A stretch of DNA of 26,036 nucleotides from a virus: IMG/VR virus record IMGVR_UViG_3300025093_000107, positions 1-26,036 of that record; one strand, given 5' to 3'. A program made the position numbers and the translations under genes. The notes under the pieces were generated by a model. That model did no database searches, was not told the DNA's origin, and saw only the letters and a program-made list of their open reading frames with translations. The number at the start of each line of letters is the position of its first letter. Within the stretch, counting starts at the first letter, position 1. Below are positions 2,965 through 26,036 of this stretch, piece after piece.

Positions 2965-3243
2965 ATGAATCCAATAACTTACGATTATCTATTATGGGAC
3001 AGGTGGAACTATAACCACTGGCTTAGTCAAGGAGTAACTGATTATGCAAAGCGTGGCATCAAGAAGAAAGAAGAAATTACAAAAGCTATTATGTCAACTG
3101 GTGTAGTAATGAATACGCATAAACCATATCACCCTAAATTAAATCCAAGAAGGCCTGTAGACGAACATCAGGCTAAAGTTATAGCTCATGCAATAACAGC
3201 TAAATCAGGAAACTATGCAGGACAAAGACCAAAAAGAACTTAA
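2965..3243 (+). CDS. Small hypothetical protein overlapping the terminase gene (92 aa)
   Basis: I do not recognise this protein. It starts with an aromatic segment (YDYLLWDRWNYNHWLSQG) and has a basic C-terminus (AGQRPKRT). The last 29 nt overlap the start of the large terminase gene, so the two are probably translationally coupled. It begins 1 nt after the stop of the structural gene (TAATATG). Its position suggests a packaging or head role, but no domain supports that directly. Confidence 0.6.
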   Translation: MNPITYDYLLWDRWNYNHWLSQGVTDYAKRGIKKKEEITKAIMSTGVVMNTHKPYHPKLNPRRPVDEHQAKVIAHAITAKSGNYAGQRPKRT

Positions 3244-4621
3244 ATTCAGCGACCTATGTAAATTCTTTCCTAAACAGGAAGAAGCGTTATTAGCTGCTAA
3301 ACGTTTTAAATTCACATTGTTCGGAGGTTCAGTGGGGTCAGGTAAATCATATTGGATCAGATGGAGTGTGGTGTGGTTCTTAATGGATTACTATCAACGC
3401 TATGGAATAGAGGGAGTTAGAGCAGGGATATTTTGTGAAGATTATCCAGCATTAAACGATAGACATTTAACAAAGATTAAGTTTGAGTTTCCTGATTGGC
3501 TAGGAACATACAATCAACAAAGAAATGAGTTTACATTAAAGAAGAAATGGGGAGGTGGAATTATTGCCTTCCGTAACCTAGATGATCCTGGTAAGTATCT
3601 ATCTGTTGAGTTCGCTGTTATTGCCATTGATGAGGTTAATCGTAATCCTAAGTCAACGTTCGATATGTTGCGTTCACGACATAGATGGCCTGGTATCTCT
3701 GATGTTAGATTCATAGCAGGTTGTAACCCTCTTGGTGAAGCATGGGTAAAGAACATGTGGGTTAAGAGAATGTTCCCACCAGAAGAAAAGGAACAGTATG
3801 AGTTTGTCTTTGTGCCAGCGTTACCAACAGACAATCCACATTTACCTAAGTCTTATTACACCGCTCTTGAGTCATTACCAGACAATGAAAGGAAGGCATA
3901 TCTTGAAGGAGACTGGGACGCATTTGATGAGGCAATTGATGAGAAAGGTTACATACGATTAGTAGCAGATAGAGAGTTGCAAGGAGCTACTGTTTATAGC
4001 GGTGATCACTCTGGCTTTATTGTATTAGGTGTTGATCCTGCTGCGGGTGGAGATAAATCAGCTATGGTAGTTAAGTCAGCAAACTTACAAGAGATTGTCT
4101 TTAATCAGAAGATGCCAGACACAATGGATTTGATAGGTATCATCATGGAGAAGTATCGAGAGTATAAAGTTGACTACATTGTTATTGACCAAACTGGTGT
4201 GGGACAAGGAGTTTATGATAGACTAAAGGAGTTAGACTATCCTGTTCGTGGTGTTCAGTTTGGATCAAAGCCTGAAGACCCAATGTTCCAGAACCTGAAA
4301 GCAGAACTCCACTGGAAAGAAAGGAAATGGTTATTATCAGGAGGCAGGCTAGTTCACGATTCTGGTTGGAATGAGTTTGAGTATGTGAAATACAAGAACA
4401 AAGATGGTAAAATATTAATACAACCAAAAGAGGACTTATTCAAAGAAGGTATTATGTCTCCTAACTGTGTAGACGCAGCTGTTCTTACTCAAGTAGTTGG
4501 CGACAGTGCTATAAAAAATAAGAGACTAATTAAACAAAGAGGAGGAAAGTTCCATGATGTTACAGAGAACATCTGGTCTGATAATCCTAAAATAGACAGA
4601 TGGGTAGGAAACCAAGTATAA
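3215..4621 (+). CDS. terL: Terminase large subunit (packaging ATPase and nuclease)
   Basis: The 468-aa length is normal for the family, which powers DNA entry into the prohead and cuts the concatemer. The ATPase domain shows Walker A GGSVGSGKS (residues 37-45), Walker B VIAIDE with D139 and E140, and a coupling motif GCNP (169-172). The RNase H-like nuclease domain has the three expected acidic positions: D274 in VLGVDPAAGG, D325 in YIVIDQTG and D420 in SPNCVDAAVL. All key residues are present, so it should be active. The ATG at 3215 lies inside the previous gene. The 3' end overlaps the next gene by 22 nt. Confidence 0.95.
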   Translation: MQDKDQKELKFSDLCKFFPKQEEALLAAKRFKFTLFGGSVGSGKSYWIRWSVVWFLMDYYQRYGIEGVRAGIFCEDYPALNDRHLTKIKFEFPDWLGTYNQQRNEFTLKKKWGGGIIAFRNLDDPGKYLSVEFAVIAIDEVNRNPKSTFDMLRSRHRWPGISDVRFIAGCNPLGEAWVKNMWVKRMFPPEEKEQYEFVFVPALPTDNPHLPKSYYTALESLPDNERKAYLEGDWDAFDEAIDEKGYIRLVADRELQGATVYSGDHSGFIVLGVDPAAGGDKSAMVVKSANLQEIVFNQKMPDTMDLIGIIMEKYREYKVDYIVIDQTGVGQGVYDRLKELDYPVRGVQFGSKPEDPMFQNLKAELHWKERKWLLSGGRLVHDSGWNEFEYVKYKNKDGKILIQPKEDLFKEGIMSPNCVDAAVLTQVVGDSAIKNKRLIKQRGGKFHDVTENIWSDNPKIDRWVGNQV

Positions 4622-5016
4622 AAAAAGAATTTGATCTTATCGAAGAAGATGCAAAGAACGCTCCAGTTGATGACATTCACTGGAAGGGTAAAGAAATGGA
4701 CGTTGAGTCTGACACTCACTTAGAAGATGACAAAGGAGAAGGTAAGGCAGTTATCATACGTAAATTCTCATTTGCTAAAAACCCAGATATTTTTAATACA
4801 AAAGAACCGACACGACAAGATATTTTTAATAGTCATGTGAAGGGAATAGAGGTAATGCTTTGGAAAGATGGTTTAAAGATTATGACAGATGTAGAACCTC
4901 GCATAACTTTTGATGAAGAACATTATTCGATATTTGTAGGAGCAGAACCACAAAGGGGACACAGCTTAACCGAAGCTCCTAAGAAACTAAAAGAATTGAT
5001 CCATGAAAGTCGCTGA
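4600..5016 (+). CDS. Hypothetical protein coupled to terminase and portal (138 aa)
   Basis: I do not recognise a family. The first third is charged (KKEFDLIEEDAKNAP). The rest has a mixed alpha/beta pattern (KGIEVMLWKDGLKIMTDV, EEHYSIFVGAEPQRG). It overlaps the terminase end by 22 nt and the portal start by 14 nt, so its expression is tied to both. It ends in TGA, one of the codons showing that TGA is a stop here. A packaging-motor or portal-assembly accessory is possible but unproven. Confidence 0.6.
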   Translation: MGRKPSIKKEFDLIEEDAKNAPVDDIHWKGKEMDVESDTHLEDDKGEGKAVIIRKFSFAKNPDIFNTKEPTRQDIFNSHVKGIEVMLWKDGLKIMTDVEPRITFDEEHYSIFVGAEPQRGHSLTEAPKKLKELIHESR

Positions 5017-6913
5017 TATTGCAACAAAGTATACAGAAAGTCAACAGTTCCTAGAAGAAAGGAAAAGGAGACAAGTAGCTCAGTTAGTGCTACTTAATAA
5101 CCTACAAAGAGGTGATATGAACATTGCCTCAACTCTTTTAATTACTCTATTTAATCGTATTCTCTCATCTCTCTATGATGATAGATTGCAGATTAAGTTC
5201 GTGCCATCAGAAGAAGTCTCGCAAGAAAAGATCAACTCATTTAATCTTTTAGCTCAAAGTGATTACATGGAAATGGAGAAATCCAAGTTAGATTATGATT
5301 GGTGTTGGGATACTCTATTTTTTGGTAGAGGTTACATGGAAACTCTTAGCTTTAATAAGAAAAGAAAGATCATGGAGCCTGTTGTCATTAATCCACTGAT
5401 GTTTGGCCATGATCCTTATAACGCTGATCCACAACACTGGCGATACTATTGGAAATGGGTAACTAAGAATAAATGGGAGATAGAAAAGTTAATCAAGGCT
5501 AAGGCTATTACTGGTGTTAAGAAAGCAGAGGAAATTGCATCTGGAATGGAAGAAAGAGTATGGGAATACAAGACTAGGAGAGATAGAGCTAAACTAGCTG
5601 TTGAACCTGCAGAAACAAGCAGACAAGAAGATATTTACCAGATATTAGAGTTCTACGGACATGATGAGAAAGGAGATAAGTGTGTATGGTGGGTAGATAA
5701 GAAATTCAGTCAAATACTATTGAAAGAGAAACTAGATTTGAAAGATGGTGAAGGTATTACAGCTCCTAATGGAGATACAATAAAGGTTGATTCTAAATGG
5801 CCTATTGTGTGTAAGGAAGCATTTAGAGAGCCACATTCATCAATCATGTTTAGTGTTGCTGATCTATTAGAAGATAAGCACAGAGCTAAATCAGTGTTGC
5901 TTAACCTTGCATTTATCGCAGCTAAGGATCGAGCTAACCCTATTTATGGATATAATCCTGATAAGGTTCAAGACATTACTCAGTTCTTCAGTCGTCAGAT
6001 AAACCAACACATTCCGATGGACGATCCAGACGCAGCATGGCCACTAAATACAGAAGATCCAATGAGTGCAGGATTAGTACAATTCATCTCAATGCTTACT
6101 CAAGAAGCTAACGAGCCTATTGGAACAGGTATGGCTATGCAACCACTTGATAAGAAAACAAGCGATACAGCTACAGAAGCAGCTATTACACAACAGTTAA
6201 ATGACATGGCTCAATCACTACAGTCTAAAGTTATGCAGTTTGGTGAAAAGGAATTTTGGAGTCATTGGTTTCATAGATACCAAGCTAACTATAAAGAAGG
6301 AGATACAAAGATGGCTGCTATTGTTGGTGTTAAAGGTACTAACTTTGAGAAAGTTGACTTAGGAGACTTTAAAACATCTTATCCGCCTGGTGTTTTGGTC
6401 TATAGTGCTAAAGAAGCAGAGTATAAGGAGTTAGTAATGAGAAGGGACTTGATGCAACTGTACCCACAATTGCAAATGTCATTAGGCCCTGATGGAATGA
6501 GGAACTTTAACAAGTACGTGTTCTTCCCTAAATTCTTGCAAGACCCTACTCTGGTAGATATAATGTTACCAAAGACTCTTGACGAGCTTAAAGCAGAAGA
6601 AGAAAACGAGATGTTAAGAGACAATGAGATGTTAGATGTTGCAGAAACAGATAACCATGAGACACACATTTATACTCATTACATGGTAACTCCTAAGACT
6701 AATGCCACATGGTTCCACATTGCATGGCATGAAGAAGAACTTGCTAAACAAAAAGCACAGGAAGCACAACAACAAAGGCAGATGATGGTCGAGCAACAAA
6801 GTCAGTCTCTAGGGCAGAAACCAGAAGTAAGCAAAGAGGATAAATCACCTATGAACGCAGCTTCTCCTCTTGAGAGTGAAATTAGCAATGATAAATCAAT
6901 GATAAATAACTAA
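5003..6913 (+). CDS. Portal protein
   Basis: This 636-aa protein follows the large terminase and has the pattern of large podovirus-type portals. It opens with a helical N-terminus (KVADIATKYTESQQFLEERK) and has aromatic-rich wing segments (DYDWCWDTLFFGRGYMETLS, WRYYWKWVTKNKWE). A long central helical part follows (QQLNDMAQSLQSKVMQFGEK), then a Gln-rich tail near residues 575-605. In the family a dodecamer forms the DNA channel at one capsid vertex and docks the terminase. No single motif proves the call. It rests on size, helical pattern and position before scaffold and coat. It lacks a Shine-Dalgarno sequence. Confidence 0.8.
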   Translation: MKVADIATKYTESQQFLEERKRRQVAQLVLLNNLQRGDMNIASTLLITLFNRILSSLYDDRLQIKFVPSEEVSQEKINSFNLLAQSDYMEMEKSKLDYDWCWDTLFFGRGYMETLSFNKKRKIMEPVVINPLMFGHDPYNADPQHWRYYWKWVTKNKWEIEKLIKAKAITGVKKAEEIASGMEERVWEYKTRRDRAKLAVEPAETSRQEDIYQILEFYGHDEKGDKCVWWVDKKFSQILLKEKLDLKDGEGITAPNGDTIKVDSKWPIVCKEAFREPHSSIMFSVADLLEDKHRAKSVLLNLAFIAAKDRANPIYGYNPDKVQDITQFFSRQINQHIPMDDPDAAWPLNTEDPMSAGLVQFISMLTQEANEPIGTGMAMQPLDKKTSDTATEAAITQQLNDMAQSLQSKVMQFGEKEFWSHWFHRYQANYKEGDTKMAAIVGVKGTNFEKVDLGDFKTSYPPGVLVYSAKEAEYKELVMRRDLMQLYPQLQMSLGPDGMRNFNKYVFFPKFLQDPTLVDIMLPKTLDELKAEEENEMLRDNEMLDVAETDNHETHIYTHYMVTPKTNATWFHIAWHEEELAKQKAQEAQQQRQMMVEQQSQSLGQKPEVSKEDKSPMNAASPLESEISNDKSMINN

Positions 6914-7534: not shown

Positions 7535-7999
7535 ATGTCAATTAGAAAACCATTAAAGACTGTTGCACAGTTCACAGATGCAAATGACACAGGAACAGGA
7601 TCAGTTGCAGGAGGTATACAACACACATTTACGCTTCCTCAAGATACTGACAATGTGGTTGTTAAAGTAACTGCATCAGTAGCAGGTACTGGTGTATCTG
7701 CAGTTCTTCAAACAACTGATGATGGTGGAACAACCTACTATGATGTTGCTAGAACAAGTATTGTTTCTAATGCAAACGGAACAATAGCTGAATGGTTAGC
7801 AGCAGGTACTATCTCTGATGGAGTTAGAATCGGTAGTGCAGCTGCTTCATCATTGGGTGCTGAATCAGCATCAGGTCTTCCAATTCTTTCAGAAAGAGGA
7901 AGAATCTTTATCATCATAAACGGCAACGTTACATCAGCAGCTTCAAATGAGGTTGTCAGCACAGTTTTGGTGAACTCACAATCAGCTTCATCAAATTAG
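7535..7999 (+). CDS. Beta-type structural protein (154 aa)
   Basis: The protein has alternating small and hydrophobic residues (QHTFTLPQDTDNVVVKVTAS, SAVLQTTDDGGTTYYDVA) and ends with RIFIIINGNVTSAASNEVVS, as in single-domain beta-sandwich virion proteins. The 'ttddGGtTYYDV' type of strand is common in phage structural proteins. There is no catalytic motif. It lies between portal and scaffold, so a capsid decoration or minor head protein is the best inference. Confidence 0.55.
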   Translation: MSIRKPLKTVAQFTDANDTGTGSVAGGIQHTFTLPQDTDNVVVKVTASVAGTGVSAVLQTTDDGGTTYYDVARTSIVSNANGTIAEWLAAGTISDGVRIGSAAASSLGAESASGLPILSERGRIFIIINGNVTSAASNEVVSTVLVNSQSASSN

Positions 8000-9378: not shown

Positions 9379-10461
9379 ATGGCAGTAACAGTCAGAGGAA
9401 CAGATTGGGGAGGTAGTTCAAATAACACTTCAGAATTGCTTGTTTCATACATCAATGATGAAATCAAGGTGCTAGAACCTCAACTACAGTATGCTCGATT
9501 GGGCGTACAAAGAAATGCTCCAAAGGGATATGATCGAATCCTATTCCCACAAACAAACCAAGTGCCAGTAAAGATAAACGTATCTATGCTGACAGTTGGA
9601 GGGCCTGGTGTTGGAGGATCAGGTTCAGTATTTGGTGCAGGTGCATCAATTCAAGGAGGCCAAACATCTGATGCAGCAGGATACCCAGTATCATCAACAG
9701 AAGGTGTGGCAGCAATCACAGAAGGAACAAACCCTACAGCTATTACATGGGGTGCAACTTCATACAGCTCAGGGCCAGCACAATATGGTGTGCTAGTCGA
9801 AGTATCAGATTTATTGGTACAAAACTCAGCTATTGAAGTTATCGACTCATGTACAATGCAAGTAAGAAATTCACTTGCACGTATGGTTGATACAGTTATT
9901 CAAAACGTAGTAAACGCTGGAACAAACGGAGTTATCTACGCAGGTGGAAAGACTACACGAGCAGGTTTGGGAGCAGGAGATACAGCTACTCAAACAGAGA
10001 TGAACAAGGCATATAAATATCTTGCTTCATCAAACGCAGCAGGTCTAAAACCATTTGAAGGAAAATACTATGTAGCCGTTGTTCACCCTCAAGTTGAAGG
10101 TGATCTAATGGAGAATACAAGCACTGGTTCATTTGTAGATGTTGGACGATATACATCTGTAGATGATCTACGAGCTGGAGCTTTGGGAGACTTTAGAGGT
10201 ATTAGATACCTACGAAGTGCATACCAAAACTACTTCAATTCAACAGTTAATGTATTCCCTACAACAGTTCTAGGAGACCAATCATTTGGTTGGGGATACT
10301 TCCAAGAGCCACAAGCTATTATTACTTCAACACCAGACTCAAATAACCCTCTAAATCTATACACAAGTATCGGTGGAAAGGTTACTCTAGGAGTTACAAG
10401 GTTTGAAGACACAGTTGGTACACAACGAATTATTCGAGTGGAATCAGCAATCACAAACTAG
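9379..10461 (+). CDS. Major capsid protein, N4 gp56-like
   Basis: This 360-aa protein follows the scaffold gene and matches the pattern I know for N4 gp56-family coat proteins. There is an N-terminal helical segment (SELLVSYINDEIKVLEPQLQ), then AAITEGTNPTAI (about 111-122) and the core motif AQYGVLVEVSDLL (134-146). The helix NSLARMVDTVIQNVVNAGT follows, then EGKYYVAVVHPQVEGDL and a C-terminal beta part (GGKVTLGVTRFEDTVGTQ). It should adopt the HK97 fold and form the capsid shell. The ATG sits in AATATATGGC without a Shine-Dalgarno sequence. The 66-nt gap after it holds a stable hairpin. Confidence 0.85.
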   Translation: MAVTVRGTDWGGSSNNTSELLVSYINDEIKVLEPQLQYARLGVQRNAPKGYDRILFPQTNQVPVKINVSMLTVGGPGVGGSGSVFGAGASIQGGQTSDAAGYPVSSTEGVAAITEGTNPTAITWGATSYSSGPAQYGVLVEVSDLLVQNSAIEVIDSCTMQVRNSLARMVDTVIQNVVNAGTNGVIYAGGKTTRAGLGAGDTATQTEMNKAYKYLASSNAAGLKPFEGKYYVAVVHPQVEGDLMENTSTGSFVDVGRYTSVDDLRAGALGDFRGIRYLRSAYQNYFNSTVNVFPTTVLGDQSFGWGYFQEPQAIITSTPDSNNPLNLYTSIGGKVTLGVTRFEDTVGTQRIIRVESAITN

Positions 10462-16130: not shown

Positions 16131-17948
16131 ATGCCAGTAATAGGAAAATATAAAGGAAGAGAGATAACGGGTGGTTCACAAGATGTTGTGAATGCACAAG
16201 TAAGGGCTATAGAAGCTCTTGGTAATTCTAATAGTGCTTCGCAGACTACTCCACAGTCAACAGGGGGAGGTCAACTAACTCCTACATTCACAGCAGGAAA
16301 TACAAGAGGAGGACAAGCAATGCCTGATCGTATTAATATCGGAGGTAAATCTTACTCATTTGATAAAGTTCAAGGAAGTCCAGATTTAAGAGAACAGTAT
16401 TTAGCACAACAAAATCAACAACAAGAACAAGCTCCTGAAATAGCTCCACAAGAGGTTGAAGAACAAGCAGAGGTTACACCTTTTGAGCCACAAGTAACTA
16501 CACAACCAGAAGATATACGCTCACAAGCACTAGAGTTTTTAAGAGAGCGTGGATTTGATTCTCCAGATGATGAAACAATACAAGGAGTGGCAGAACAATT
16601 AAGCGGAGGTGTTCAAGGAACAGGAGCTACTGGTTCTGAAAGCCCTTTTGTTCAAGGATTCATAGGGGCTACACAAAGAGGAGTAGAAGCACCAACTGGC
16701 CCAGCACAAGGACAATCATTAGTTCAAAGTTACTTGCCAGAACAACCAGAAACTCAGATAGCTAACGATCTTTTTGCTACCGATCCTTTCTTTTCACAAT
16801 TACAACAATCGCTTCAAGATTATTTCAATCCTAGAAGTCAGAGAGAGTCTTTGACTAGTATATATCAAGATATGTTAGAGGATTCTGGTATTGAAGCTAT
16901 TGATATGGAACTCATTGACATGAAAAATGTTATTGAGGGAACTGAAGATGATATTAGAACTGAGGTAACAAAGGCAGGAGGATTTGCTAGTGATTCACAG
17001 GTTCTTGCACTTGCTAATGCTAGAAACAAACAGTTGATAAAGAACTACAATACATTGCTTGAAACTAGAAATGCTAAACAACAGTACCTAGATAAAATGA
17101 TGGATTTAAGTGTTCAAGATAGAGAAGTTGCAGACAGACAGTTTAATACTATGATGAACTTTGGATTCCAAGTTGCAAACTTTAAACAACAAGCACGACA
17201 GAATGCCATATCTCAATACAACACAATAGCTGCTAATGTTGGATACGATGGACTTATGGATATGGTCGGTAATGATCCTTATCAAATTCAATCAGTTGAA
17301 CGATTAATGGGTATGAGTCCTGGAGGATTACAACAACTATCTGATTTGTCAGCACAAGAAAGAGCTAGAGAACAACAACTGTTTGATCTTGAGGTTGCTG
17401 ACAGGAGAGCTTCTATTGCAATGAGCAATGCTAAGATTGCTGCTCTTGCACAAGAGAAGCAGATGAATGTTGATAAGCTACAAAAGAAAGCTGATATTGC
17501 ATTAGAAAAAGCAGGAATAGTAACTGGAAAAGTTCACGAAGCTATTGATAGGATAGGCCCACTCTCTCATACTCCGATTGTCGGAGGAGCTACAGGCTTC
17601 GTTGGAGGGGTTACTAGATGGATTCCAGGAACACCATCTTATAAATTGAACAAGACAATCGATACGATCAAAGCAAACTTAGGTTTTGACACACTACAGG
17701 CTATGAGAGATGCATCTCCAACAGGAGGTGCTTTAGGTCAAGTTGCTGTTCAAGAATTGGAAAATCTACAAGCGACTATTTCTTCATTGGATATTGGTCA
17801 AGATGCTGAAACATTAGAGCAAAACCTAGGTGCGATTGAAGGACATTATGTTAAATGGATAGCTATTTCATACCCAGAGAGATTAGGAGAAATTGGATAC
17901 GGGCTAAAGCCTAATGGAGAAGTCTTTAGGTTTGCAGATGGTCTATAA
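16131..17948 (+). CDS. Large internal virion (ejection-type) protein, coiled coil
   Basis: The 605-aa protein has a Gln/Gly/Pro-rich, probably disordered N-terminal third (REQYLAQQNQQQEQAPEIAP). Residues about 230-465 are mainly long helices and coiled coil (MELIDMKNVIEGTEDDIRTE, QERAREQQLFDLEVADRRAS, KQMNVDKLQKKADIALEKAG). A short Gly-rich hydrophobic stretch follows (HTPIVGGATGFVGGVTRW). In podoviruses, proteins of this type lie inside the capsid and are ejected to extend the short tail through the envelope. There is no lysozyme motif. The call is from composition and order, with the next gene as partner. Confidence 0.55.
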   Translation: MPVIGKYKGREITGGSQDVVNAQVRAIEALGNSNSASQTTPQSTGGGQLTPTFTAGNTRGGQAMPDRINIGGKSYSFDKVQGSPDLREQYLAQQNQQQEQAPEIAPQEVEEQAEVTPFEPQVTTQPEDIRSQALEFLRERGFDSPDDETIQGVAEQLSGGVQGTGATGSESPFVQGFIGATQRGVEAPTGPAQGQSLVQSYLPEQPETQIANDLFATDPFFSQLQQSLQDYFNPRSQRESLTSIYQDMLEDSGIEAIDMELIDMKNVIEGTEDDIRTEVTKAGGFASDSQVLALANARNKQLIKNYNTLLETRNAKQQYLDKMMDLSVQDREVADRQFNTMMNFGFQVANFKQQARQNAISQYNTIAANVGYDGLMDMVGNDPYQIQSVERLMGMSPGGLQQLSDLSAQERAREQQLFDLEVADRRASIAMSNAKIAALAQEKQMNVDKLQKKADIALEKAGIVTGKVHEAIDRIGPLSHTPIVGGATGFVGGVTRWIPGTPSYKLNKTIDTIKANLGFDTLQAMRDASPTGGALGQVAVQELENLQATISSLDIGQDAETLEQNLGAIEGHYVKWIAISYPERLGEIGYGLKPNGEVFRFADGL

Positions 17949-20846: not shown

Positions 20847-20852
20847 TTGCCT

Positions 20853-22457
20853 ATGAAAAAAATACACTACCTAATTATATTAATATTCATTGCGTTACCT
20901 TTTTTTGTTAATGCCATTACAATACCCTGGCAAAAGACTGAGGTCGGCACGACATTTCCTCTTTATACTACTGACACCATAGTTGTCGGTGCTAGTGCGA
21001 CTTCTACAACAGGTAATATATTTGAGGCTGTAGGAGATTCCCTATTTAGAGGAGCTTTAACTGCTTATGATGTCATTACTGCTCCCAACTACTCAGCGAC
21101 ATCAACAACTGCAACTTCAACTATTGCCGGAGGTCTTGCTATTGAAACTTCAGGTTTTGTTTATGACTACTCAAGTAACAATGTGGGTATTGGTACTGCG
21201 AGTCCAAGCTCCGCTCTACATTTAAATGGAGGCACAGGAGATATTACAACAGGAATTGTTTTTGGTGACGGTGATACAGGATTTTATGAACAGGCTGACG
21301 ACGCACTTAGATTAGATGTTGTGAGTAGTGGAGCTCGATATAATTGGAATAGTACAGGATTCTCTACTGTGGGTGGTGGAGTTATGCCTGTGAATAACTC
21401 TTTGTACCCATCATTTGCTTTTACTGCTGATCTAAATACTGGAGTAGATTGGGGTGGGTCTTCTGACACCATGGACTTTGTTACTGGAGGAGTAGATAGA
21501 GTTAGAATTGACTCATCAGGCAATGTCGGAATCGGAACCGCCACCCCAAGTTACAAACTAGACGTAGCAGGTGACATTAGAGCCACAGGACTTATTGATG
21601 CTTCTCACTTTGTAGCAACGAGTACTTCGGCTACTTCGACTTTTGCAGGAGGTTTTGCCATTGATACTTCTGGATTTATTTACGATTATTCAAGTAATAA
21701 TATTGGAATCGGAACTACTTCACCATCAAACAACCTAGAAGTGGCAGGTACATCATATTTCTCTGCAACATCGACTTTTGAAGGAAGTATTGGAATCAGG
21801 GATAATTTCGGTACTTCAGGTGCTTTTGGTAAGTCATTGCTTTCTATCGAAGGGACAGCTGGAAATGTTATAGAGCTTAATGTAAATAATGCAGTAACTC
21901 CTTTGGCCTCTACTTTTCCAGTAGCTATTATTTCAGACAACAAAAATGGTATTAGTGGTGTTACTATGGGTAATGCAAACACGGGAATTTTCGCAGACTT
22001 TCGGTTTTCGCTTGTAGATACAACGGATCACTATCTTGCATTTGCACAGCCTGGAGTAAATTATAGTGGTAATCTTTTTGAACAAGCTAGAAGCTCGGCA
22101 GATTATATATTCAACAATGGTGGAACATCAAGAGATATAATAATTGGAACATTAAACGAAAATAGTTTAATTTTTGGAACAAACGGTAATCAGAGAATGA
22201 GAGTAGCTTCTGACGGTAACGTCGGCATCGGGACCACTTCTCCAAACTCACTACTTGATCTAGGAGAAAAGAATGACGGTACAGATAGTTACTTACAAAT
22301 TGATTCAGAAAGCGGAACACCACCAGCAGGAGATTGTACAGATGGTGATGCAAATGAAGCAGGAAGAATGATTGTAGATCATACAAATGATCGGCTATAT
22401 GTATGTAATTCTCTATCAAGTGGTAGAGGGTGGGATTATATCGGATTAACAGATTAA
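20853..22457 (+). CDS. Signal-peptide-bearing, repeat-containing surface/fibre protein (534 aa)
   Basis: I choose the ATG at 20853 over an in-frame TTG at 20847 because it gives a clean signal peptide: MKKIHYLIILIFIALPFFVN, with likely cleavage after A21. The mature part is beta-rich. Residues 81-120 and 254-293 are two copies of a 40-residue unit (ATSTTATST..AGG..I-TSGF-YDYSSNN-GIGT-SP). NVGIGT(A/T)(S/T)P-type motifs also occur near 224 and 456. The C-terminal domain has C495 and C518 (RMIVDHTNDRLYVCNS). I associate these repeats with surface proteins of Patescibacteria. A signal peptide is unusual for a virion protein, so it may be exported by the host cell, or be a fibre captured from a host gene. 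No S74 chaperone domain is seen. Confidence 0.7.
   Translation: MKKIHYLIILIFIALPFFVNAITIPWQKTEVGTTFPLYTTDTIVVGASATSTTGNIFEAVGDSLFRGALTAYDVITAPNYSATSTTATSTIAGGLAIETSGFVYDYSSNNVGIGTASPSSALHLNGGTGDITTGIVFGDGDTGFYEQADDALRLDVVSSGARYNWNSTGFSTVGGGVMPVNNSLYPSFAFTADLNTGVDWGGSSDTMDFVTGGVDRVRIDSSGNVGIGTATPSYKLDVAGDIRATGLIDASHFVATSTSATSTFAGGFAIDTSGFIYDYSSNNIGIGTTSPSNNLEVAGTSYFSATSTFEGSIGIRDNFGTSGAFGKSLLSIEGTAGNVIELNVNNAVTPLASTFPVAIISDNKNGISGVTMGNANTGIFADFRFSLVDTTDHYLAFAQPGVNYSGNLFEQARSSADYIFNNGGTSRDIIIGTLNENSLIFGTNGNQRMRVASDGNVGIGTTSPNSLLDLGEKNDGTDSYLQIDSESGTPPAGDCTDGDANEAGRMIVDHTNDRLYVCNSLSSGRGWDYIGLTD
21093..21212 (+). repeat. Repeat copy 1 of the ATST/NVGIGT unit
   Basis: This encodes residues 81-120 of the secreted-type protein (ATSTTATSTIAGG ... 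YDYSSNNVGIGTASP). The copy at 21612-21731 matches closely in protein but differs at many third positions, so the duplication is old or under protein-level selection. Confidence 0.75.
21612..21731 (+). repeat. Repeat copy 2 of the ATST/NVGIGT unit
   Basis: This encodes residues 254-293 (ATSTSATSTFAGGF ... YDYSSNNIGIGTTSP), the partner of the unit at 21093-21212. A shorter related fragment (SATSTFEGSIGI) follows at residues 304-315. Confidence 0.75.
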
Positions 22458-22850: not shown

Positions 22851-23492
22851 ATGATTACTAGATTCTTATTTAGACCAACAAAACCTTTTAAGGTAAACCA
22901 AAAGTTTGGAGAAAACATGGCTTGCATAGATGAAAATGGAAAAGTTTTTGTGAAAACAAACGAAAGCGATCCTTGTCCTAGTGGAACTAAATCTGTATAT
23001 GGAAATATGGATGGTCATAATGGTTTAGACTTACAAGCTAAAAAGTATCAAAACATATCATCATCAACTGATGGAATTGTAACAGAGCTTGTTTCAGAAG
23101 AAGATAGGGGTTTAGGAATCGGAATAACCACAACAAGTAAATTTTACTGTTTTGAAACAGATAAAAAAGAATACTTTAAAATTAGATATTGGCATAATGC
23201 AGTCAATCTAGTAAAGCTAGGACAAGAGGTAAGAATAGGTGATCTAATTGCTCTAGCTGATTCGACTGGTTATTCATCAGGTAATCATTTGCATTTTGAA
23301 ATTAAACCTGTAGATGTTGTTTTAGATCGAAAAGGCAAGATAGTTAAAACTGTTAATTTATTAGCAAATAACGGCTATTTTGGAGCAGTAAACCCTACTA
23401 AATACATGAACCATGAGTATGCTAAGACATTTACTGGCGTTAAGACATTAGTGCAAAGACTGATGTTTATATTAAAGCTAATTAAGAATTAA
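22851..23492 (+). CDS. M23-family peptidase endolysin
   Basis: The 213-aa protein has the full M23 (LytM-type zinc endopeptidase) signature: HNGLDL with H56 and D60, RYWHNAV with H115, and HLHFE with H146 and H148. VKLGQEVRIGDLIALADSTG is the typical stretch before the last motif. H56, D60 and H148 should bind zinc. The family cleaves peptide cross-links in peptidoglycan. There is no signal peptide, so release would need a holin, and a candidate follows 10 nt downstream. Two cysteines (C25, C42) occur near the N-terminus. A virion-associated lysin is possible, but the lysis-gene context favours an endolysin. Confidence 0.85.
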   Translation: MITRFLFRPTKPFKVNQKFGENMACIDENGKVFVKTNESDPCPSGTKSVYGNMDGHNGLDLQAKKYQNISSSTDGIVTELVSEEDRGLGIGITTTSKFYCFETDKKEYFKIRYWHNAVNLVKLGQEVRIGDLIALADSTGYSSGNHLHFEIKPVDVVLDRKGKIVKTVNLLANNGYFGAVNPTKYMNHEYAKTFTGVKTLVQRLMFILKLIKN

Positions 23493-23502
23493 TATCAGAT
23501 AT

Positions 23503-23694
23503 ATGAATATAAAAAAATGGTATAAAAGTAAGACAATTATATTTAATACAGTCACAGTATTAGTAGCGATTTTAACTGTTTTCGGATATACTCCAGATCA
23601 AGAATTGGCGGAAATTACATCAAGCGTTTTAGTATCTATTTCACCTCTAGTTAATATTGGTTTAAGATTTGTTACTAATAAAGGTATAATGTAA
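23503..23694 (+). CDS. Holin-like small membrane protein (63 aa)
   Basis: It has a basic N-terminus (MNIKKWYKSKT), a first hydrophobic span at about 12-29 (IIFNTVTVLVAILTVFGY), a short acidic turn (TPDQELAE) and a second span at about 40-57 (SSVLVSISPLVNIGLRFV), then NKGIM. The 'KSKTI-FN--TVLVA' opening is common in small phage holins. It directly follows the M23 peptidase. In this role it would permeabilise the inner membrane to release the hydrolase. It is the last gene of the late + strand block. Confidence 0.7.
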   Translation: MNIKKWYKSKTIIFNTVTVLVAILTVFGYTPDQELAEITSSVLVSISPLVNIGLRFVTNKGIM

Positions 23695-23740
23695 TTAAGT
23701 CATTGTGTTCTTTTTGGGAATTTAGTGTCTGTTTACGTCT

Positions 23741-23770
23741 TTGACAGAACCAACAAACAATAATGCTAAT
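23741..23770 (+). promoter_or_regulatory. Candidate promoter with perfect -35
   Basis: TTGACA (23741-23746) is followed after 18 bp by GCTAAT (23765-23770), four of six matches to TATAAT. It lies 46 nt after the holin stop and would start a transcript near 23777 that covers the hairpins at 23881-24042, the 52-aa ORF and the terminator at 24297-24335. Confidence 0.4.
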
Positions 23771-23776
23771 AACGGA

Positions 23777-24083
23777 AAAGATATATTACTTAGGACATAA
23801 ATATATTTCTCACTACTAAAGTTATTCTGCTGAATTCCCCACATAATTGTTGGAAAGAATATCTCATCAATACATGCAAGTAGTGTATTGGTGTGATATA
23901 AGGCAAGGACTCTGTGTCTGTTATCCTTCCTTATATCGCATTAGTACACTATGTTATAGTGTAACCGAATGATCCAGTTGTTATTATTCAAATTCCACAC
24001 GTGGGCTTACATAAAGGCACATAGTAATGCTGTTTTTGTAAGGGAACTAGAACAAAAAACCAAAACAATAAGGAAACTAAAGC
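23777..24083 (+). ncRNA. Structured leader or candidate non-coding RNA
   Basis: About 300 nt without a convincing gene. TAGTGTATTG... (23881-23909) pairs with ...TTAGTACACTA (23924-23951) in a 28-bp stem with one bulged C and a 14-nt loop. Its four non-Watson-Crick positions are all G.U in the + strand RNA. TACACTAT (23945-23952) can instead pair with ATAGTGTA (23956-23963) over a 3-nt loop, so the two folds exclude each other. A third hairpin spans 24006-24042 (CTTACA/TGTAAG outside, GGCA/TGCT inside). A promoter lies upstream and a terminator downstream. It may be a long structured leader of the 52-aa ORF or an independent RNA. No known family is assigned. Confidence 0.5.
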
Positions 24084-24242
24084 ATGAGCAAGCCAACAGA
24101 ACTGGTAGACAGATACCTTAAATGGTTATCACGAACAGAAAAACAGCCCCGAATCGAAGATGATATGGGGCTACCAAGACGGCTAAGACGTAAGAAATAT
24201 AAGAAGATTGTCAGATTCAGAAAAGACAGCCATAGTGATTAG
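24084..24242 (+). CDS. Small basic hypothetical protein (52 aa)
   Basis: ATG at 24084 runs to TAG at 24240-24242. AGGA lies 9 nt upstream, a better Shine-Dalgarno match than most genes here have. The N-terminal half looks helical (SKPTELVDRYLKWLSRTEKQ) and the C-terminal half is very basic (PRRLRRKKYKKIVRFRKD), suggesting nucleic-acid binding. It sits alone between the structured leader and the terminator. Because the coding stretch also contains a hairpin (AGCCCC 24145-24150 with GGGGCT 24167-24172), the region could instead be RNA only. Confidence 0.45.
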   Translation: MSKPTELVDRYLKWLSRTEKQPRIEDDMGLPRRLRRKKYKKIVRFRKDSHSD

Positions 24243-24256
24243 TGGTGAAAACCACT
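24241..24256 (+). promoter_or_regulatory. GAAA-tetraloop hairpin at the end of the 52-aa ORF
   Basis: AGTGGT (24241-24246), loop GAAA, ACCACT (24251-24256) form a perfect 6-bp stem with a GNRA loop, overlapping the stop codon. GTGGTG (24242-24247) can alternatively pair with CACCAC (24290-24295) just before the terminator, which would open this hairpin. Confidence 0.45.
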
Positions 24257-24296
24257 GACGTTTCATTACGTTTAGTTGTTTATGTTCAACACCACA

Positions 24297-24335
24297 GGGG
24301 CAGTAGGTAAATAAGTCCTACTGCCCCACTTTTAT
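24297..24335 (+). terminator. Rho-independent terminator for + strand transcription
   Basis: GGGGCAGTAGG (24297-24307) and CCTACTGCCCC (24317-24327) form a perfect 11-bp GC-rich stem with a 9-nt loop, followed by ACTTTTATT. On the - strand no T-run follows, so it mainly ends + strand transcripts (late genes and the small RNA/52-aa unit). It lies 4 nt from the end of the - strand block and separates the convergent units. Confidence 0.85.
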
Positions 24336-24448
24336 TCTCTTATAACATCTATAATTACTAATACTATTAATAGTAGAAAGAATACTCCTAATAATGTTAT
24401 TAAGTCATCTATACTAGCGTTGTGATAGATAGGGTTATGTACTCTCAT
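24332..24448 (-). CDS. Tiny membrane protein (38 aa)
   Basis: ATG at 24448 starts 2 nt after the stop of the SSB-like gene and the ORF ends at TAA 24332-24334, just before the terminator stem. The protein is MRVHNPIYHNASIDDLITLL followed by a hydrophobic span (GVFFLLLIVLVIIDVI) and RE. One membrane helix is expected. Spacing and clean ends support a real gene, the last of the - strand operon. The function is unknown. Confidence 0.5.
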   Translation of the reverse strand: MRVHNPIYHNASIDDLITLLGVFFLLLIVLVIIDVIRE

Positions 24449-24450
24449 AT

Positions 24451-24747
24451 TTAGAACGGATCATCTAATGGGTCAGTAGTTTTCTCAAAGATAATTCCAG
24501 AGCCAAGAAATTTAGTATCTTTCTTTTCTTCCCTTTCTTCTTTAGTTTGAGTTTCTGCAACAAAGTGTGTCTTTTTTAATATCCAACCTTGACCTGTCTT
24601 AGTCACTTTTGGTTCTTTTAGAGCAACTACATCTAGTTTGTAATCTTTTGCGTGATGAACATTACCATCAGCGTCTTTATATTCCCTATCTATTATTTTG
24701 CTTTTATCGATTTTTGATAAGTCGATTGTTAGTAGTATTTTCCCCAT
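24451..24747 (-). CDS. SSB-like protein with acidic Pro-Phe tail (98 aa)
   Basis: The first 85 residues are beta-rich and charged (MGKILLTIDLSKIDKSKIID, YKLDVVALKEPKVTKTGQGW, FLGSGIIFEK), compatible with a small OB-type fold. The C-terminus is TTDPLDDPF, much like the acidic tip of bacterial SSB (DDDIPF), which recruits partner proteins. It lies in one operon with an ERF-type annealing protein, a usual neighbour of phage single-strand binding proteins. No canonical SSB signature is seen in the body, so the call depends on the tail and context. Confidence 0.5.
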   Translation of the reverse strand: MGKILLTIDLSKIDKSKIIDREYKDADGNVHHAKDYKLDVVALKEPKVTKTGQGWILKKTHFVAETQTKEEREEKKDTKFLGSGIIFEKTTDPLDDPF

Positions 24748-24750
24748 AGT

Positions 24751-24915
24751 TTAAAGTGCGTTTATACCAAATGTTAATAACCCTATTAGTCCGATAACTA
24801 TAAATAGTACACCATATACTGCTAAGACGATCATGAACCATCTCCACATTATTGCCCAAACAAGTCTATATACGTTTTTATTTTCTAATTTTTCTATTAA
24901 TTCTCTTGTTGTCAT
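24751..24915 (-). CDS. Small membrane protein (54 aa)
   Basis: ATG at 24915 to TAA at 24751-24753 encodes a short charged helix (MTTRELIEKLENKNVYRLVW) followed by a long hydrophobic part (AIMWRWFMIVLAVYGVLFIV, IGLIGLLTFGINAL). One or two membrane spans are expected. It fits between the SSB-like and ERF-like genes with gaps of 3 and 16 nt, so it is almost certainly co-transcribed. The function is unknown. Confidence 0.55.
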   Translation of the reverse strand: MTTRELIEKLENKNVYRLVWAIMWRWFMIVLAVYGVLFIVIGLIGLLTFGINAL

Positions 24916-24931
24916 GTTTATGTTTTAGTTT

Positions 24932-25372
24932 TTAAAAAGGAACACCGTCCTTATCTACTGGTGATTTAGCTTTAACACCATCGTGTTTTTGAGAGTCAAA
25001 ATCCATATTGTTATCTTTAATCTGAAATACTTTTTGTTTTATGTATCTTTCTGAATATGTATCTGTACCACCCATTTGTTGTGTTGCATTCGTTGCTTTC
25101 ATTTCTCCTCTTTCTGTTCTTAATTGAAATTTAAGTGTTTCATCACTCTCTAAATCAATTAATATCAATTCTTGATAATAGCCAAATTTATCTGCTTTTA
25201 GGTTACAGACAGTAAGAAGTTTATTTTTTGTACATACTTCCGAAACAATCTTTTCAATCATTTCTGGTGTGAAATAATCATATTTAGAATAGTCATTCCT
25301 GCCGTCTTTTTTGTAATTGCCTTTGACGACCATTTCCCTAGCATTATTTAATTTTTTATATATTTCTTTCAT
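24932..25372 (-). CDS. ERF-family single-strand annealing protein (recombinase)
   Basis: The 146-aa protein resembles the ERF family of phage annealing proteins. It has an N-terminal helix (MKEIYKKLNNAREMVVKGNY), then YDYFTPEMIEKIVSEVCTKN, strands (YQELILIDLESDETLKFQLR) and the key region QMGGTDTYSERYIKQKVFQI followed by DNNMDFDS. This corresponds to the family's 'GsaxTYAxRYaL...D.DDD' motif. The family pairs complementary single strands in phage recombination. The C-terminus DKDGVPF is again acidic and ends in Pro-Phe. AGAGGA lies 3 nt before the ATG, and the start overlaps the endonuclease stop (ATGA). Confidence 0.7.
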   Translation of the reverse strand: MKEIYKKLNNAREMVVKGNYKKDGRNDYSKYDYFTPEMIEKIVSEVCTKNKLLTVCNLKADKFGYYQELILIDLESDETLKFQLRTERGEMKATNATQQMGGTDTYSERYIKQKVFQIKDNNMDFDSQKHDGVKAKSPVDKDGVPF

Positions 25373-25806
25373 AATCCTCTTTTATTGAGATTTAGTAATT
25401 CTTGGTAAATCTGATTAAATCTATTTAATTCTTTTTCATCTCTCCCACCATACTTACAGGGTATACTTTTCATCTCAAGAATTTCTTTCAATAGAATAAG
25501 TTGTCTCTTTTTAACTATTGAGTATTTAATAAAATCGTCAATATACAATCTTATAATTGGCTTAGTAAGTTCTATTTTATAGAAGGTCTTACAATTAGCT
25601 TTACCAAGTTTTTCAATCATGTAATGTCCACCAAAATTATCTTTGATCCACTTCATAATTTTTTTATTTGTATTTCCTACTGAAATAGTAGGATTATAAA
25701 CTGGATTTTTTTGCCTAGATTTTTTTGATGGTTTTACTTTTTTTACACCAACGTAACCTTCTCCATCTAAGAAACCTACAAAATATATTAATTCGTTCTT
25801 TCCCAT
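25369..25806 (-). CDS. LAGLIDADG homing endonuclease, free-standing
   Basis: The 145-aa protein has one LAGLIDADG motif near the N-terminus, YFVGFLDGEGYVGV (about residues 8-21), with D14 and E16 in the acidic catalytic positions. A basic stretch (KKVKPSKKSRQKNPVY) and the typical later parts NTNKKIMKWIKDNFGGHYMI and KKRQLILLKEILEMKS follow. One motif means it should act as a homodimer, cutting a long DNA site. It is not inside an intron or intein here but sits as a separate gene between two others. Its stop overlaps the ERF ATG and its start is 3 nt from the upstream gene, so it is fully integrated in the operon. Confidence 0.85.
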   Translation of the reverse strand: MGKNELIYFVGFLDGEGYVGVKKVKPSKKSRQKNPVYNPTISVGNTNKKIMKWIKDNFGGHYMIEKLGKANCKTFYKIELTKPIIRLYIDDFIKYSIVKKRQLILLKEILEMKSIPCKYGGRDEKELNRFNQIYQELLNLNKRGL

Positions 25807-25809
25807 ACG

Positions 25810-26036
25810 TTAATTTTCATATTTGTTGTCTTTATCAAGGAATTGGTAATAGCTTATTTCTGCTCTGTTATATTCGTCTGTCTCATCAATTAATTCATCT
25901 CTATTCCAAACTTGGTAATACTCTCCGTCTTTTACAAGGCGAACACTTTTATCACTAAGGATAACTCCGTCTTCTTCTGCTAAATATTGCATTGACTTAT
26001 CTATGTCAATTACTCCGTCAGTTGTTTTTAATGTCA
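25810..26036 (-). CDS. C-terminal part of an unknown protein, cut by the right edge
   Basis: The frame is open to the window end. Reading in from the edge it starts TLKTTDGVIDIDKSMQYLAE, and the internal Met at 25992 need not be the start. The fragment is acidic, with VRLVKDGEYYQVWNRDELID and an aromatic end (ISYYQFLDKDNKYEN). No family is recognised. It is the first visible gene of the - strand operon. The rest of that operon and its promoter lie outside the window. Confidence 0.55.
   Translation of the reverse strand, partial: TLKTTDGVIDIDKSMQYLAEEDGVILSDKSVRLVKDGEYYQVWNRDELIDETDEYNRAEISYYQFLDKDNKYEN

Follow-up and report, generated by a model that had tools for sequence, protein, structure and literature searches.

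A strand-specific RNA structure between the lysis genes and the early module of an uncultured phage

The gap between the late and early modules of the phage record IMGVR_UViG_3300025093_000107 contains a real, strand-specific and lineage-specific RNA structure of an ordinary kind. Its most prominent feature is a long stem-loop at positions 23880-23952 of the + strand, and the folded region is larger than the limits given in a first-pass annotation of this DNA, reaching up to a terminator at ~24337. The reading tentatively preferred here is that the late lysis mRNA carries a lineage-specific cis-acting element in its 3' part, probably a processing or stability hairpin of the RNase III type. A processing or stability signal would show how late mRNA is handled in an uncultured phage group without recognisable relatives in genome collections, while a discrete RNA would extend the short list of large phage RNAs whose function is unknown. 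Either question concerns a single well-defined locus.

Gene layout of the record

The window, meaning the whole stretch of DNA that was analyzed, is an IMG/VR record of 26,036 nt that is classed as linear. The first ORF (20-256, + strand) encodes the C terminus of a chaperonin-like protein, and its homologue in a related phage (L003:66-1586) matches Cpn60_TCP1 (E 1.2e-31). A GroEL-like gene lies upstream of the packaging genes in related phages (L003:66-1586; L129:8045-9367). Further along the + strand are genes for the terminase large subunit (3215-4621), a portal-like protein assigned by position (5003-6913), the major capsid protein (9379-10461), a tail fibre (20847-22457), an M23 peptidase (22851-23492) and a holin (23503-23694; PHROGs holin families, E 0.0014-0.0015). 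The holin gene is the final clear gene of the late operon ahead of the structured stretch, which fills the gap between the convergent late and early modules.

The early module is encoded on the - strand from 24451 and includes an ERF recombination gene (24932-25372, - strand). A LAGLIDADG/HNH-type endonuclease gene (25369-25806, - strand) is directly upstream of the ERF gene, with a 4-nt overlap. Taken as window positions 24332-26036, the early module opposes the late operon in the window and in the relatives G026 and G049, and it runs in the same direction in G018, G020 and G027; the junction of the two modules is the structured stretch. A small membrane-protein-like ORF (24332-24448, - strand) adjoins the terminator. 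It is possibly a conserved small gene, judging from a 22-nt stretch that is 95% identical in G015 and 21 nt at 90% in G029.

Shine-Dalgarno motifs are absent upstream of most + strand genes in the window, and ATSTT/GIGT-type repeats occur within the tail-fibre gene (20847-22457). The scarcity of these motifs together with the repeats hints at a patescibacterial host, as a candidate only. When the capsid alignment was used to look for a host among 84,980 genomes, no match was returned.

The main stem-loop

The main stem-loop (23880-23952, + strand) consists of 29 pairs, five of which are G·U including the outermost, with one bulged C and a 14-nt loop. The outer stem (23881-23903/23929-23951) has 23 pairs with no mismatch and four G·U pairs (23888, 23890, 23891 and 23894), and the bulged C23904 separates it from an inner stem of five pairs (23905-23909/23924-23928). 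The first-pass annotation had described a stem of 28 pairs with one bulge, in which the non-Watson-Crick positions are all G·U on the + strand. This description was borne out at the same positions, and the added outermost pair G23880·U23952 brings the 28 pairs to 29.

The data support an RNA structure in this stretch that exceeds chance and is biased to one strand. Folded as RNA, 23875-23970 reaches -38.2 kcal/mol on the + strand versus -26.3 on the - strand, and the fold has a z of -6.55, with 0 of 200 shuffles as good. With a gapless-stem score of 22.5, the main stem-loop ranks first among the hairpins of the 26-kb record. By chance, this score is expected 0.0017 times per strand per 26 kb, a rate obtained from 30 Mb of Markov sequence with the same dinucleotide make-up as the record. 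When the full structured stretch is folded, the pairs of the main stem have probabilities of 0.98-1.0. The coding potential of the stem is poor, with a codon score of -0.5 per codon over 23847-23972. Additionally, the folding bias towards the + strand agrees with the direction of both the late operon and the terminator. It had been proposed earlier that the G·U pairs reflect selection on RNA folding. The strand-biased fold beyond chance is in keeping with this proposal, but the four G·U pairs are weak evidence alone, because a perfect palindrome decaying by transitions would put all of them on the + strand with p ~1/16.

No U-run follows the main stem, after which GTTATAGTGTAACCG comes next, so the main stem itself is not a terminator; it is also much longer than an intrinsic terminator, a role that was ruled out for it. 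No other copy of the main stem was found in the record, and a 17-mer scan of 257 Gb of genomes gave five matches, which are due to chance and do not extend. With no further copy in the record or in these genomes, a palindromic mobile element of the REP/MITE type is not supported either.

Competing hairpins

Two short hairpins on the + strand compete with the main stem. The 5' competitor (23865-23893), which is absent from the first-pass annotation, has 10 bp (23865-23874/23884-23893) with one G·U and pairs with the outer left arm of the main stem. Its duplex energy is -13.8 versus a mean of -7.0 for shuffled flanks (p 0.007), and folds of growing transcripts show that it is the earliest to form as the transcript grows. 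The 3' competitor (23945-23963) is a perfect 8-bp helix (23945-23952/23956-23963) with a 3-nt loop, and it beats shuffled flanks marginally (p 0.04).

The 8-bp helix had earlier been taken to mean that the RNA can switch. The helix is indeed perfect and a switch is physically possible, but the alternative is unfavourable at equilibrium. The long hairpin has an energy of -41.7 versus -33.9 to -35.8 for a form with three hairpins, a gap of 6-8 kcal/mol. The pair probabilities of the competitors are ~0.001 across the full stretch, and the long hairpin therefore clearly wins at equilibrium. The complementarity of the right arm UUCCUUAU to AUAAGGAA, the AAGGA region of the small ORF downstream, is no better than that of shuffled arms (p 0.27), which ruled out sequestering of the ribosome site by the right arm of the main stem.

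The second block, the small ORF and the terminator

A 200-nt z scan of both strands of the record (n=520 windows) ranked the segment from 24101 first and that from 23801 second; both are on the + strand and within 23801-24300. The second block (24145-24281, + strand) begins with a hairpin at 24145-24172 (AGCCCCG/UGGGGCU), followed by a second long stem at 24177-24281 (24177-24198/24260-24281) that has 21 pairs, five G·U and two single-base bulges and encloses two hairpins. The fold of 24140-24292 has a z of -5.7 on the + strand and -3.0 on the - strand, and that of 24060-24334 has a z of -6.25.

The second block runs into a + strand intrinsic terminator (24297-24337), in which an 11-bp stem, GGGGCAGTAGG/CCTACTGCCCC (24297-24307/24317-24327), closes a 9-nt loop and is followed by ACTTTTATTC. 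The stem is GC-rich, and the U-run ACTTTTATT after it is present on the + strand only. The 11-bp terminator claimed downstream in the earlier annotation is thus confirmed by stem and U-run, although the automatic terminator scan missed it because of the 9-nt loop.

From holin to terminator, a stretch of ~640 nt, the overall fold has a z of -6.4 (20 shuffles). Within it, 23695-23860 is unstructured (z -0.2), and the 170 nt between the blocks (23968-24140) are at chance level (z +0.7). A further hairpin that had been described at 24006-24042 is present in the MFE fold, but 23968-24080 folds at chance level (z +0.2).

A small ORF that may encode a basic protein of 52 aa (24084-24242, + strand) has AAGGA upstream. 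The most unpaired 30-nt block of the stretch (24055-24084) is at its start, and the open stretch after the main stem may hold the start of this small gene. The left arm of the second long stem is inside the second half of the ORF. The codon score of the ORF is -0.149 per codon, which is lower than that of all trusted genes (-0.06 to +0.55); the median of spurious ORFs is -0.38. A translated-pattern scan of IMG/VR found no homologue of it. An upstream TTGACA promoter had also been proposed. TTGACA is present at 23741, but it has no acceptable -10 element at 16-18 nt and the promoter scan found none there, so this promoter was dropped as only half a consensus.

Search for relatives

The blastn searches of the region, against phages and plasmids and against 63 phage contigs belonging mostly to the same group, found no homologue, and translated-pattern scans of IMG/VR found no relative. 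Covariance models were built from single sequences for the hairpin (R1) and the second block (R2). Over ~1.9 Mb of mostly related phage contigs, they matched the window itself and one further sequence by chance (E 0.35). The collections searched may omit records that are very close to the window. The earlier idea of a new phage structured RNA consequently stands as far as the strand-biased fold beyond chance is concerned, but a family is not shown, as no search gave a homologue.

Searches with the terminase, portal and capsid yielded >100 related loci, and 38 related contigs were taken whole or nearly whole. Only one near-identical contig was encountered, L058, with 100% identity in portal and capsid, and its coverage is confined to about 5.0-16.7 kb. 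The lysis regions of the relatives are not syntenic with that of the window. The best peptidase relative (G049) has 42% identity, other genes next to the peptidase and no comparable long stem. The late operons of related phages have ordinary terminators and different genes at the end, with compact terminators mostly found after the lysis genes; the main stem is longer than these. Relatives that share the packaging and capsid genes are without the element, which appears to be lineage-specific.

A search of the whole window against Rfam gave no gathering-level match. When E was allowed up to 10, 23690-24460 gave two chance matches and no others, one to mir-340 (18 bits against a cut-off of 70) and one to a plant-virus pseudoknot; there was no match in 16 loci from related phages. 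Known RNA families, meaning ROOL, GOLLD, OLE and all others in Rfam, were ruled out as no covariance model matched.

Other structures were seen in the relatives. In several of them, a strong long hairpin is found just upstream of the homologue of the gene at window 7535-7999 (G013 740-827, L126; G015 2257-2314, L128; G020 17637-17709, L107), where the window itself has only 36 nt. As a target for covariation, this hairpin, which recurs at one position across phages, may be preferable to the main stem. A run of TGGCTATGGC/TCTGGC repeats in another relative (G009 6235-6387, L097) is self-complementary as RNA over ~90 nt.

Possible functions

Judged by operon direction, strand bias and the terminator, 23695-24337 probably forms the 3' part of the late (lysis) transcript. 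This RNA would carry the 28-29-pair hairpin, then a mostly open stretch, the second folded block and finally the intrinsic terminator. A stem of 28-29 pairs that lacks a U-run and lies between cistrons is most readily explained as an element for mRNA processing or stability. RNase III acts on continuous double-stranded RNA of ~20 bp or more, and the stem provides 28-29 pairs with one bulge on the transcribed strand. Its length would be sufficient for cleavage by this enzyme at an mRNA processing site. The long hairpin could instead serve as a protective barrier, so that the lysis mRNA and the sequence after it have separate fates. While the RNA is being transcribed, the competing hairpins might slow the formation of the long stem. 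Against the preferred reading, no homologue was found in the collections searched, and the same position carries no such stem in other phages of the group.

The structure might also have no function; it would then be a decaying intergenic inverted repeat or an insert gained by horizontal transfer, such as a small palindromic mobile element. Its confinement to one lineage, without conservation in relatives, fits this explanation, and some very long palindromes are expected by chance in any reading of hundreds of phages. It is nevertheless rather unlikely, considering that every wobble is on the transcribed strand, that the adjoining second block is also biased to the + strand, and that neither a second copy in the record nor a credible copy in the 257 Gb of genomes was found. 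A DNA-level element, such as an operator or a recombination or replication site whose inverted repeats fold as RNA only incidentally, is improbable. Four CATYARTACA/TAGTGTA units surround the stem in alternating orientation, the site is the boundary of convergent modules at which the GC skew turns, and the orientation of the early module varies among relatives. As DNA, however, the stem has four mismatches, since the wobbles pair on the + strand only. Moreover, the unit is not enriched elsewhere in the record (56 matches versus 70 expected with 3 mismatches; TAGTGTAW found 4 times versus 3.2 expected), and gene orientation also accounts for the turn in skew.

Two further explanations assign another role to the RNA. 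One is a discrete noncoding RNA of ~480-640 nt, starting at about 23860 or 23695 and ending at 24337, which would form a new phage class in the manner of GOLLD or ROOL. It would agree with the z of -6.4 from holin to terminator, the two structured blocks and the poor codon score of the ORF within, and an increase of GOLLD in the course of phage lysis has been reported (PMC12286853). This is unlikely, however, as it has no promoter, the blocks are parted by 170 nt at chance level, 23695-23860 is unstructured, and neither an Rfam match nor a homologue was found in any collection searched. The more specific proposal of a new ncRNA class of this size, made late with the lysis genes and combining a bistable 28-pair hairpin, a second junction domain and its own terminator, is quite doubtful. 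Very unlikely is a bistable switch in which the long hairpin alternates with three short ones (23865-23893, the inner stem and 23945-23963) and so regulates the small downstream ORF. Each competitor outdoes shuffled flanks, with p 0.007 for the 5' one, which forms first co-transcriptionally, and p 0.04 for the 3' one, but the alternative is 6-8 kcal/mol weaker, with pair probabilities of 0.001 in the full stretch. In addition, the three-hairpin form sequesters no ribosome site and no terminator, and the complementarity of the right arm to the AAGGA of the ORF is at the shuffled level (p 0.27). Overall, a cis-acting processing or stability hairpin in the lysis mRNA is still preferred, with the reservations given above.

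Comparison with known systems

The first-pass annotation had likened the element to GOLLD and ROOL. The likeness is limited to the context, a phage and its late region; there is no Rfam match even at E 10 and no tRNA was found in the 26-kb record, which may be incomplete; ROOL and GOLLD are often near tRNA islands in phages (PMC12286853). Like GOLLD, the element is phage-encoded, has a late or lysis context and extends over hundreds of nucleotides (PMC12286853). Unlike GOLLD, it has no Rfam match, no tRNA nearby and no conserved 3' domain identified, and much of its length is unstructured. It shares with ROOL a phage origin, a length of several hundred nucleotides and the lack of a clear ORF, whereas it differs in having neither an Rfam match nor a tRNA and in consisting of two simple blocks rather than the multi-stem fold of ROOL. 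Filing the element with GOLLD and ROOL is disfavoured because of its two unstructured stretches, the missing promoter and the lack of an Rfam or other relative.

Late-operon intrinsic terminators are represented here by 24297-24337, which is one by sequence, and relatives have them after the lysis genes. In contrast, the main stem has no U-run and is much longer. Hairpins processed by RNase III are known in phage mRNAs, namely the T7 early and late mRNAs and lambda sib. The main stem departs from them in its 14-nt loop and larger number of wobbles, and it resembles them in its length, its nearly perfect pairing and its place on the coding strand between cistrons.
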